Positions 26,974-45,009 of a stretch of 45,009 nucleotides of DNA are shown here, piece after piece. Source of the DNA: an uncultured Porphyromonadaceae bacterium (GTDB lineage Bacteria > Bacteroidota > Bacteroidia > Bacteroidales > Muribaculaceae). The stretch covers positions 1-45,009 of the forward strand of contig CAMWTI010000007.1 of the NCBI GenBank assembly GCA_947177135.1, in the 5' to 3' direction. The position numbers and the translations under genes were made by a program. The notes under the pieces were generated by a model. That model was not told the origin of the DNA and searched no databases. It saw nothing but the letters and a program-made list of their open reading frames with translations. Each line of letters starts with the position of its first letter. Position 1 is the stretch's first letter.

Positions 26974-27013
26974 GTAAACAGCAATCGCATTTTGCCACGA
27001 ATTAACACAGATT

Positions 27014-27148
27014 AACTTAATGAAGCAGCTTTGCCGAAAGGCGTCGGCGCAGCGGTTCGTCGTAGAAGCGGAGCGAGAGCCAAGCCATGGCGATGATCAG
27101 GACGAAAAGGCCGATGCACACGGGCCATGCCTGGGCGAGGGTGACGCC
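27014..27148 (-). pseudogene. Detached copy of the acyltransferase 3' end (135 bp)
   Basis: This segment matches the last 132 coding bases of the acyltransferase gene at 28495-28629 over 135 bp with four differences. It encodes the same final residues (from GVTLAQAW to AKLLH) and the same TAA. All four differences are third-position synonymous changes (for example CGA/CGC and GTG/GTC). It has no start and no upstream part, so it is a remnant. It lies just upstream of mdh, where the native end of the acyltransferase gene would be if the AT-rich islet were removed. Confidence 0.9.
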
Positions 27149-27404
27149 ACACTCATGCATATAGCTATATAACTCTAGCAATAAAACACTCCATAAACCA
27201 GATCATTAGGTAAATATATATAAGTAATAGATCCAATTGTGTCGGTTGTAATTTTATTGCATTTTACATATAAAGTAAATACAACGTAAACTTCTATATC
27301 GTCTTTTTAGAGAAATAATCAATTAACAATTCTCGATATGTACATATTCCATTGTTTTCATTTGGAGTATATGCATCAATAAAAAACAATGTTATCATTT
27401 ATAT
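27149..27404. other. AT-rich non-coding left part of the islet
   Basis: About 256 bp of strongly AT-rich DNA between the detached acyltransferase end and the first islet gene. It holds a perfect palindrome ATATAGCTATAT (27159-27170) and an inverted repeat CATTGTTTT/AAAACAATG (27350-27358 with 27383-27391). The latter lies just after the minus-strand gene's stop and may act in transcript ending. No coding frame, tRNA or integrase remnant was seen. Confidence 0.6.
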
Positions 27405-28082
27405 TTAGTTGCGTATTCCTTCGTATTTTTCTCCTCCGACAACAGTAAACCAACGAGCGAAAGAAGTTTTACCCCAAAAATTAGCAAAGGCTTCACTCAT
27501 AAGTTGCGCGCCATGACGATAGCCGGCATTAATCATAGCTGTGCGCAATTCGCTAAAGGCTTTGTATCCAGATGGCTTATCGACAGTATTTGACCAATAG
27601 AATTGCCAAAACATAAGTTGATCTGGAGTTGATAGTGTAGAAACAAGACGCAGCATTGTATCGCCTCGAGATCCATTAACTGCGCGGTGCATAACATCAC
27701 GTAGCAATCCTGAAATCTCATCGTCCATTCTATATGTTGCTCCAACCGCAAGGTTTATCAAACGATCGCAATATGTTGAATCATCTATAAGATAAAGCTT
27801 GTCCTGTAATGCGTTCAGATGTGAGGCGACGTTTTGATTCAAATTCGATATTCCCTGTGGAATTATTTCAGCCTCATAGGCCGTAGAACAATAAGTATTA
27901 AAAAAACCAATCCAGTTATTAGGAAACGCATTAAGAAAACTTTTCTGCGCCTCATAACTATCAGGTGTCTCCAGCAACTTTTTGAAAGATATATTTAGTT
28001 GAACTGTATCGGCAATAACATATTGAGCATCTGCAAATTTAAAGATACTCAACATAATAACTGCAAAGATTAATTTTCGCAT
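27405..28082 (-). CDS. AT-rich hypothetical secreted protein in the islet
   Basis: A 225-residue protein I do not recognise. An N-terminal signal peptide (MRKLIFAVIMLSIFKFADA) predicts export to the periplasm or beyond. There is no lipobox cysteine. The mature part is helical-looking, with FPNNWIGFFNTYC, YCDRLINLAVGA and LMFWQFYWSNTV as notable strings. The ORF track extends to 28130, but the extra part overlaps the upstream gene, and the ATG at 28080-28082 opens the signal peptide. Base composition is far more AT-rich than the surrounding genes, suggesting recent transfer. It lies 10 bp downstream of the small gene and probably shares its transcript. Confidence 0.72.
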   Translation of the reverse strand: MRKLIFAVIMLSIFKFADAQYVIADTVQLNISFKKLLETPDSYEAQKSFLNAFPNNWIGFFNTYCSTAYEAEIIPQGISNLNQNVASHLNALQDKLYLIDDSTYCDRLINLAVGATYRMDDEISGLLRDVMHRAVNGSRGDTMLRLVSTLSTPDQLMFWQFYWSNTVDKPSGYKAFSELRTAMINAGYRHGAQLMSEAFANFWGKTSFARWFTVVGGEKYEGIRN

Positions 28083-28092
28083 AATTAGACGT

Positions 28093-28374
28093 TTATGGCC
28101 GAATCGAGATCGTCGCGTACCCTGAGCCATTCCTATTCATGAATGACCTAAACTTGTTCATTTCAGATCCTGTATGCCCACCAGCTGGAATACTATACTC
28201 ATTAGTTGCAGAATTATATTCATAAATTTTAATGCGCTCATAATTAGGTCCCCCACTATTTACGCCAGAGCTCATAATACTTTCAACATCAACTGCAACG
28301 ACATCCTGATTAGATAAAGATTCGTATTCATCGTTTAATTCTGATAGCACTTGCCTTAAATTGGTTCTGTCCAT
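28093..28374 (-). CDS. Small AT-rich hypothetical protein in the islet
   Basis: A 93-residue protein of no family I know. It has no signal peptide or membrane helix. The N-terminal third looks helical and acidic (LRQVLSELNDEYESL). The second half is rich in Gly, Ser, Asn and Tyr with SIPAGGHTGSEMNKF and ends GYATISIRP. It precedes the secreted protein gene by 10 bp on the same strand. A small cytosolic first gene with a secreted second gene would fit a toxin/immunity or peptide/processing pair, but this is inference only. A weak TAATTTCGC promoter-like element lies about 25 bp upstream. Confidence 0.65.
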   Translation of the reverse strand: MDRTNLRQVLSELNDEYESLSNQDVVAVDVESIMSSGVNSGGPNYERIKIYEYNSATNEYSIPAGGHTGSEMNKFRSFMNRNGSGYATISIRP

Positions 28375-28494
28375 AGTCTATGTTTAAATGTTTTTATTGC
28401 GAAATTACAATAAATAAGTAAATCCGAGCATATGTTCATGTTATTTTTTTTCAGCTGTATATTGTTGTTTCAATTAATTGGTAAATATGTTAAG

Positions 28495-28629
28495 AACTTA
28501 ATGAAGCAGCTTTGCCGAAAGGCGGCGGCGCAGCGGTTCGTCGTAGAAGCGGAGCGAGAGCCAAGCCATGGCGATGATCAGGACGAAAAGTCCGATGCAG
28601 ACTGGCCATGCCTGGGCGAGGGTGACGCC
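28495..28629 (-). repeat. 135-bp direct repeat, copy within the acyltransferase gene
   Basis: This is the intact partner of 27014-27148. The two copies are in the same orientation, 1481 bp apart (start to start), with 131 of 135 positions identical by direct reading. The repeat ends abruptly on both sides, and the AT-rich islet fills the space between the copies. No short target duplication or transposase-type terminal repeat was seen. Confidence 0.9.
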
Positions 28630-42920: not shown

Positions 42921-43517
42921 TTAATCGTTCAGTTCTGTCAAAAAGCCATAGTGCCGCGCCGCCCCCGGCCAGCAGACTTTTACAGCATTGGACGATATTT
43001 TCCATACGTTCAGAAACGGACGCATCTCATTGGTCAGCGCTTCCTTTAGATTTGCGAAAGAATCGCGCACGACGTTTCCGGCGTTATCGCGGATATTGAG
43101 AATCAACACAAACTCGATCTGGCTGTTGCTTACCGTCTTGTCAGGTAAATGCAGGCCGTCTTTGGCGTCCTGTCCGTGGAGGCCTTCGCGTATGGCCTTG
43201 AGAATGCTGTAGGAGTCAACGAATTTTTTTGTGATGTCGCGCAGAAAGGTGGTATAGTTGTCATATGCCGTCCAGTTGTCGGGCATTGGCTTGCCGTTGA
43301 GCGTCAGATCGTCCACTGATCCGTTTCGTCCTCTTGGTGCTGAAGACTTGGCTTCTACAAATATATGGCGGCCATTGATGTAGGATATGAATTCGCAGGC
43401 ATTGATGTTGTGGGTGCTGGTTTTGTAGCCGCGATTGGCCAGCGGATGTTGTTCGACTCTGAAGCAGTTGTCATCGTCTAACCTGAACGTCAGTCCCGAT
43501 TCCTCGAATTCGATCAT
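42921..43517 (-). CDS. Putative PD-(D/E)XK-like protein, partner of the AAA ATPase
   Basis: A 198-residue soluble protein that I cannot assign to a named family. The stretch NACEFISY (E42) followed after about 12 residues by HIFVEAKSS (E55-A56-K57) has the acid-then-ExK spacing of PD-(D/E)XK nucleases, on what looks like two beta strands joined by the NGR turn. Downstream are a helix with TTFLRDITKKFVDSYSIL and a strand EFVLILNIRD. Its start overlaps the ATPase stop by 4 bp (ATGA), so the two are co-translated. A nuclease role is inferred from motif and pairing. Alternatives are a non-catalytic nuclease fold or a sensor subunit. Confidence 0.7.
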   Translation of the reverse strand: MIEFEESGLTFRLDDDNCFRVEQHPLANRGYKTSTHNINACEFISYINGRHIFVEAKSSAPRGRNGSVDDLTLNGKPMPDNWTAYDNYTTFLRDITKKFVDSYSILKAIREGLHGQDAKDGLHLPDKTVSNSQIEFVLILNIRDNAGNVVRDSFANLKEALTNEMRPFLNVWKISSNAVKVCWPGAARHYGFLTELND

Positions 43518-44515
43518 AGCATCAGTTCCTGTTCATAAAGTCTGACCGACTCATCAATGATCGGGTTCTCAGGCATGCCGTCGCGGAGATCGCTCACCAT
43601 GATGTCGCCGCCGAACGAGATGACCGGAATAGACATTTTCTCCTGGCTTGCTGCAACAAGTAATTTTTTGATTACGAAATAGGAGTGGCTTGCTATGAAG
43701 AACTGCATACCGTAGCGGGCCAGCGCCACTATGATGTCGAGCAGCTGGATCAGCAGTCCCGGATGCAGTCCTGATTCTGGTTCGTCGATGAAGATTATGG
43801 AATCCTTTGTCAGATAGTGGTTTGCAATCAACGTATCGAAAATCGCAATCTTCTTCGTGCCCTCGGAAGTCACGTTGATGTCAAACGACTGCTTGCCTTG
43901 ATAATACACCCATGCCTTTTTCTCCTTGGAATACTCTATCCTGCCGCCAAGGGCCTGATTCAGCTGCTCGCGCGCGTCGCGACATGGAGCGGCTATCTTT
44001 CCCTGCGTCGACGGAGAGAGCGCATTAGCCAGGTCATAGTACGTTTCGTCGAAGCCGAACTCCATCAGCACATCACGGTTGTGCTTGATGACGCCCAGCA
44101 GCGACAGCACTTCCTTTGCCGGAATGAATACCGAATTCGACTGCCGCGGCGGGCAGTCGTTGTGAATGTCGATGATCTTCTTCTCGGTGTCGGGGCCGAA
44201 CGAAAAAGAAAACGAAGTGCCACGCCGCTCGGTCATGGAGAATTCAAGCGGTCCGGCATTGGGCCGGCGCACCATGCTGCCGATTCTGTCCACCTGAAAC
44301 GTCCAATACAGCTTCTCGTTGAGAATCTCGGCGATAGTGCGTTTGTTTTTACCGCGGCCCGAAAGTTCAACGGACTTCTGGGCGCAATACAGCGCCTTTA
44401 GCAACACGGTCTTGCCCGACCTGTTGGGTCCGATGAGCAGATTTATCGCTCCGAGTCGATTGACCGGCAGCATCTTTATCGGCCCGAAATTCTTCAATTC
44501 AAATGACTGTATCAT
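43514..44515 (-). CDS. AAA/ABC-type ATPase (OLD/RecF-like), first gene of a two-gene cassette
   Basis: A 333-residue ATPase. Walker A GPNRSGKT is at 29-36 after the typical opening FELKNFGPIK. VTSEGTKK (215-222) sits where the ABC signature is expected, Walker B is IIFIDEPESGLHPG (240-253), and IASHSYF carries a switch His near 277. There is no coiled coil, TOPRIM or nuclease domain in the chain. ATPases of this group are common in anti-phage and abortive-infection systems (for example Septu, Gabija and PARIS types), where a second gene supplies the effector. Here the partner is the overlapping PD-(D/E)XK-like gene. No named system could be matched from memory. Confidence 0.85.
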   Translation of the reverse strand: MIQSFELKNFGPIKMLPVNRLGAINLLIGPNRSGKTVLLKALYCAQKSVELSGRGKNKRTIAEILNEKLYWTFQVDRIGSMVRRPNAGPLEFSMTERRGTSFSFSFGPDTEKKIIDIHNDCPPRQSNSVFIPAKEVLSLLGVIKHNRDVLMEFGFDETYYDLANALSPSTQGKIAAPCRDAREQLNQALGGRIEYSKEKKAWVYYQGKQSFDINVTSEGTKKIAIFDTLIANHYLTKDSIIFIDEPESGLHPGLLIQLLDIIVALARYGMQFFIASHSYFVIKKLLVAASQEKMSIPVISFGGDIMVSDLRDGMPENPIIDESVRLYEQELML

Positions 44516-44538
44516 AACGCATCAATTATTATGTACCA

Positions 44539-44568
44539 CAAAAGTAATCAAATTATTTCAGATTCCAA
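44539..44568 (-). promoter_or_regulatory. Promoter of the ATPase cassette
   Basis: On the minus strand TTG (44568-44566), 19 bp, then TACTTTTG (44546-44539) matches the Bacteroidota -33/-7 pattern. It lies 23 bp before the ATPase ATG. The -33 part falls inside the truncated GNAT reading frame. Confidence 0.6.
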
Positions 44569-44731
44569 CCATTAACAAATACCATTGAGGTAAAGGATTG
44601 TCTGTGTTCAGGCAACTGCGAAAGCAATCGTCATACACCATTTTTGATTCTTCCGTGGCCCACTTGTCTTGAAAGTATGCTATTGCTGTGTCAAGATATT
44701 CTGGAGACTGTCTCAATGATATGATTTTCAT
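44558..44731 (-). pseudogene. Truncated GNAT acetyltransferase (N-terminal 57 residues only)
   Basis: The frame starting [16 protein letters not shown] and containing [11 protein letters not shown] and [10 protein letters not shown] matches the N-terminal part of GNAT acetyltransferases of the kind annotated as aminoglycoside-acetyltransferase-like. It stops at a TGA just after the first core strand, and no continuation containing the acetyl-CoA motif is found before the ATPase gene. The ATG at 44731 is preferred over 44743, which would put the start right at the carboxypeptidase stop. It is most likely a remnant cut off by whatever brought in the ATPase cassette. Confidence 0.7.
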
Positions 44732-44739
44732 ATGATGAT

Positions 44740-45009
44740 TCAAGGGAGATCAGGCGGGGCGAGGGTGACGGTGGCTGGGGTGACTGCGAGGGTGACAGTG
44801 GAGGACTCGATGAATGGGAGGTTAGTGTCGACGTGGCCGAATGGGACGTTGAAGGCCGCCGGATAGTCGTAGGGGGCGATCATGTCGGCGATCATCGCAT
44901 TCATGTCGGAGTAGTTGCGGTCTGGTTCCCATTCCGTGAACTGGCCGACTATGAGTCCGCGCAGGTTGGGGAGGATGCCGGCCAGACGCAGTTGGTGGAG
45001 TATGCGTTC
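44740..45009 (-). CDS. LD-carboxypeptidase (peptidase S66), C-terminal part (5' partial)
   Basis: The minus strand is open from the window edge to TGA at 44740-44742 and gives 89 residues. [15 protein letters not shown] and the later [15 protein letters not shown] match the end of S66 LD-carboxypeptidases, with the catalytic His in FGHVDTN. These enzymes trim the terminal D-Ala of recycled muropeptide tetrapeptides in the cytosol. The tail after ESSTVTLAV is Thr/Pro rich. The truncated GNAT frame starts 8 bp downstream. The frame is missing from the ORF track because its start lies outside the window. Confidence 0.85.

Follow-up and report, generated by a model that had tools for sequence, protein, structure and literature searches.

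Two genes overlap near one end of the DNA analysed here, a stretch of 45,009 nucleotides (hereafter the window) that makes up one whole contig of a 2.2 Mb assembly in 144 contigs. Do they form an anti-phage system, and if so, of which kind? A preliminary description, made from the sequence, had proposed a defence or conflict module consisting of an ATPase and a PD-(D/E)XK-like partner, with an effector that could not be matched to any named system. The proposed pairing is backed by family matches, by residue conservation and by the gene neighbourhoods of homologues, and a defence-type function is well supported at the level of sequence comparison. The idea that the effector lacks a named counterpart is not supported, as described below.

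Organization of the gene pair

Gene A (43514..44515, minus strand) encodes a 333-aa OLD/ABC-type ATPase, the presumed sensor and regulator, and gene B (42921..43517, minus strand) encodes a 198-aa PD-(D/E)XK-like protein, the presumed nuclease effector. Both ORFs start with ATG and are intact, and they overlap by 4 nt at an ATGA start/stop (43514..43517, minus strand), as the preliminary description had stated. The corresponding offset of -3 recurs in many homologous pairs, and the overlap suggests that translation of A and B is coupled.

The -7 element of Bacteroidetes promoters has the consensus TAnnTTTG. A match to this consensus, TACTTTTG (44539..44546, minus strand), is found 31 nt upstream of the ATG of A, and this candidate operon promoter fits the single promoter that had been assumed for A and B. 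It is not proof of one, because there are 22 such matches in the whole window, counting both strands. The lower GC content that had been ascribed to the pair holds weakly: the module has 51.4% GC against a mean of 56.4% (SD 3.6) for segments of the same length, which is about 1.4 SD low. The adjoining flavodoxin gene has 52.9%. A stronger anomaly than that of the A/B module is the AT-rich stretch at 27001-28500, where the GC content is 0.39-0.48 compared with 0.56 for the window.

Protein A contains a Walker A motif, GPNRSGKT (residues 29-36), an SEG signature (217), a Walker B motif, IIFIDEP (240-246), and an H motif, SHS (276). Its Pfam matches are all to ATPases of the AAA_21/AAA_15 type (AAA_21, E 8.8e-21), and the Pfam search found no TOPRIM domain in A or B. 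This agrees with the earlier view of A as an ATPase with complete Walker motifs and no effector domain. An ABC transporter was considered for A and rejected, since there is no membrane partner and the match to a defence family is far better.

Assignment to HEC-02 and properties of the small protein

When the two proteins were compared with PADLOC models, A matched HEC-02A (PDLC04214) with an E-value of 7e-134 and 444 bits over residues 1-332 of 333, and B matched HEC-02B (PDLC04221) with an E-value of 2.2e-25 over residues 1-193 of 198. For A, the next-best model outside the HEC set was AriA (E 2e-23, 81.8 bits); PD-T4-4_A scored 63 bits, PtuA 49.8 and GajA 39.6. Because both full-length matches far exceed those to other defence models, the pair was placed in HEC-02. 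Judged by these matches it belongs to an already catalogued candidate anti-phage system, which makes it a sound find and not a new one. HEC reportedly stands for Hma-embedded candidate, a term said to come from a 2024 preprint by Payne et al., HEC-02 being candidate 2. Several HECs, HEC-06 among them, were active in assays according to the statement made where that preprint is cited in PMC12988326. No published test of HEC-02 itself was found in the literature searched. The effector therefore does have a counterpart: PADLOC matches both genes to an already named system, though HEC-02 is a named candidate, and pairs of this kind appear in two publications (PMC12137116, PMC12839542).

Two other PADLOC labels look swapped: the model that hits the ATPase, PDLC04146, is called HEC-02B, and the one that hits the small protein, PDLC04145, is called HEC-02A.

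None of Pfam, PHROGs and NCBIfam annotates a fold for the small partner of HEC-02, which is a predicted system. With B as the query, nothing was found in NCBIfam or PHROGs and nothing convincing in Pfam; one divergent homologue matches the Pfam family DUF6661. Searches of PDB sequences with B or its profile gave chance matches only. The E...ExK pattern noted earlier in B is strongly conserved in an alignment of 39 B homologues: residue 55 is E and residue 98 is K in 39/39, position 42 carries an acidic residue (D or E) in every sequence, and K57 is retained in 38, with R in the remaining one. E6 is present in 31 of the 39. In a divergent alignment (A1; 13-51% identity to the B protein of the window) E55 and K98 are the only invariant residues. 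The predicted PD-(D/E)XK signature of B is thus an acidic residue at position 42 followed by E55-x-K57, on adjacent strands of the structural model.

That model, an AlphaFold2 prediction from eight sequences (pLDDT 80, pTM 0.82), has a strand at 43-47 with residue 42 at its start and an adjacent strand at 50-57 that ends in E55-x-K57. These are followed by a long helix (82-110) bearing K98, a strand (134-140) and a helix (155-171). A shorter Pseudomonas homologue, L013-B, was predicted with pLDDT 84 and the same order of elements. When the two models were compared with the PDB by Foldseek, no match reached E<=0.001, and the TM-scores were low (0.2-0.33). The best match of the Pseudomonas protein was FokI (E 3.4e-3, probability 0.94), a weak match. 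The list for B was headed by HamA (E 0.1) and OkrAI, also weak matches, with LmuA, Nt.BspD6I, RecU, Hjc and Can2/Cdn1 further down amid unrelated proteins. Structure prediction for the 198-residue protein thus reproduced the expected order of elements but not a close structural match. Because E-values were above 0.001 and TM-scores low, the case for a nuclease fold in B comes chiefly from the conserved motif and the element order; a PD-(D/E)XK fold is likely, not proven. The near-invariant E-ExK signature, together with the models, offers a concrete active site for mutation.

Homologous loci and a deletion in a sister genome

Since direct searches with B gave no relatives, homologues of B were gathered from MAGs, genomes and plasmids by taking the ORF downstream of each A homologue. 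An intact B is located directly downstream at about 41 of 49 distinct A-homologue loci; B is frameshifted, truncated or partial at 4 of the 49 and missing at another 4. Peptide patterns detected no relatives of B in genome contigs, tblastn detected none in plasmids and phages, and scans of viral contigs yielded no member of the pair, one of them giving distant ATPases only. The pair is rare among relatives: apart from one remnant, B was found in 0 of 98 other genomes, and homologues of A at E<=1e-30 were found in 1 of 60. Close homologues were found in MAGs that bear the labels Porphyromonadaceae and Bacteroides, and the window is accordingly taken as Bacteroidales. Several homologues are carried on plasmids.

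The neighbourhoods of homologues, to which the preliminary description had pointed as informative, include defence genes in some cases. Three plasmid pairs (L017, L019, L021) are enclosed in BREX operons, the Polaromonas pair between pglX and brxC/pglY and the Methylomonas and Sphingobium pairs between brxC and pglX. In one MAG (L010:879-2676) the HEC-02 pair is directly followed by genes for a HipA_2 kinase and a DUF3037 protein, which correspond to the PADLOC candidate PDC-M66A/B. The pair in the window is chromosomal and in no recognised defence island. On one side it has a flavodoxin-fold gene, which adjoins pnp, and on the other a fragment of an LD-carboxypeptidase gene at the contig end. 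In two other Bacteroidales MAGs (L008:6551-9598 and L009:5012-9604) an LD-carboxypeptidase gene and then an FKBP gene precede the pair; in the window, too, the pair lies downstream of the LD-carboxypeptidase. The LD-carboxypeptidase side of the pair in these two MAGs and in the window (42921-45009) is possibly a shared insertion spot.

In the near-identical sister genome G002, whose pnp aligns to that of the window at 100% (rounded), the same place on contig C1 (L002:307-438) contains a 43-codon ORF composed of the first ~24 codons of A and the last ~19 of B. Both flanks of this scar align to the window at 92-93%, and a short repeat, TCTGCT (6 bp, coding strand), is present at the junction in both flanks. 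The flavodoxin gene is also absent from this locus. The simplest reading is that the A/B operon was present in the common ancestor of the two genomes and was then lost by deletion in G002. The scar therefore indicates that the pair is dispensable, and its loss fits an accessory system.

Just upstream of A, a 61-aa ORF (44558..44743, minus strand) resembles by eye the start of a GNAT-like acetyltransferase; it has no Pfam match. The corresponding spot in G002 (L002:3-251) contains an apparent C-terminal part of a GNAT-like acetyltransferase gene.

Proposed mechanism and relation to known systems

A pair of an OLD-type ABC ATPase and a PD-(D/E)xK nuclease, WonAB, has been described from the WASA-1 prophage of Vibrio cholerae (PMC12137116). 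It acts by abortive infection, for which both active sites are needed, and shuts down translation with the chromosome left intact; toxicity of the nuclease requires the ATPase, and DNA is not degraded (PMC12137116). Pairs of OLD-ABC and PD-(D/E)XK proteins are also recurrent modules embedded in BREX loci (PMC12839542).

The best explanation for A and B, and one that we consider probable, is that they are a HEC-02 member in which an infection-sensing ATPase licenses the PD-(D/E)XK nuclease B and infection is aborted. A would dimerise through its nucleotide-binding domains, bind the small protein B and sense an effect of phage infection. By binding or hydrolysing ATP, A would then license B, which would cut a nucleic acid using an active site formed by E42/E55/K57 (plus K98), and the infected cell would no longer support the phage, i.e. 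abortive infection. By analogy with WonAB, B may act on RNA of the translation machinery and not on the chromosome. We infer the formation of an A-B complex, the trigger, the substrate and the abortive outcome; that A senses and B cuts is proposed from the results on WonAB and from the recurrence of OLD-ABC and PD-(D/E)XK pairs in BREX loci.

PD-(D/E)XK enzymes most often cut DNA, nucleases acting on DNA (FokI, BsmI, HamA) predominate among the weak structural matches, and homologues occur within BREX operons. These observations would suit a system directed at DNA, as restriction and Septu are, in which A detects foreign DNA or its ends and B cleaves the DNA of the phage or plasmid while the host survives. 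However, the tested relative WonAB leaves DNA undegraded and blocks translation (PMC12137116), and no modification enzyme that could mark self DNA is encoded in the window operon; we regard a DNA-directed system as unlikely. The chances are slimmer still that A merely restrains B, without a phage-specific trigger, in a toxin-antitoxin-like pair or one that maintains a plasmid or other mobile element. Pfam does describe AAA_21 as "putative AbiEii toxin, Type IV TA system", and plasmids carry several homologues, but the dependence of WonAB nuclease toxicity on the ATPase is contrary to simple sequestration (PMC12137116), A is the first gene of the operon, and the pair is located on a chromosome, close to pnp.

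It would be highly improbable for B to be a catalytically dead PD-(D/E)XK fold that binds nucleotides or nucleic acid as a sensor, with A as the output. Inactive REase folds combined with NTPases have been proposed as sensors elsewhere (PMC12839542), but the catalytic E-x-K and the acidic residue before it hardly vary among 39 divergent homologues, which would be unexpected for a dead fold.

Under the preferred reading, a sensing ATPase that licenses a nuclease, WonAB resembles A/B in being a two-gene operon of an OLD-type ABC ATPase without TOPRIM and a small PD-(D/E)xK nuclease. By published residue numbers, WonA has ~56 more residues from Walker A to Walker B (K34 to E300, versus K35 to E245 in A), and WonB, with active-site K71, is smaller than B at 16.1 kDa. 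HEC-02 appears related to WonAB by analogy, the two having been compared by architecture and published residue numbers. Since the motif spacing of WonA differs from that of A, the WonAB mechanism is here transferred across subfamilies. The short A/B operon and the natural deletion in the sister genome would make a convenient test of a WonAB-type mechanism in gut Bacteroidales. A survey of ABC ATPases, as cited in PMC12137116 (ref. 33), contains operons of an OLD-ABC ATPase and a novel REase. These share the A/B architecture and are also found in BREX loci (PMC12839542), and from this architecture we infer that they correspond to HEC-02.

PARIS, Gabija, Septu and OLD, like A/B, link an OLD/ABC-type ATPase to a nuclease. 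The effector is a TOPRIM in PARIS, Gabija and OLD and an HNH in Septu, whereas here it would be the small PD-(D/E)XK protein B. Gabija, PARIS and OLD were rejected for A/B, as Pfam finds TOPRIM in neither protein and A consists of the 333-aa ATPase only; Septu was rejected because B has no HNH (PtuB) match in Pfam or PADLOC and has the E-ExK signature instead. PD-T4-4 has a similar operon organisation, but the match of A to PD-T4-4_A is far below that to HEC-02A, and the PADLOC model PD-T4-4_B gave no match to B.

The HEC-02 group was recognised through embedding in Hma or other defence operons; relatives are embedded in other defence operons, and the window copy is in none. B of the window also differs by an insert of ~20-25 residues (about 60-85), right after the catalytic E-x-K strand, which only close Bacteroidales homologues share. 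The substrate or trigger of this branch might differ from that of WonAB-like relatives, although a mechanistically distinct subtype seems unlikely to us. With HEC-02 the pair has in common the full-length matches of both proteins, the gene order and the overlap.
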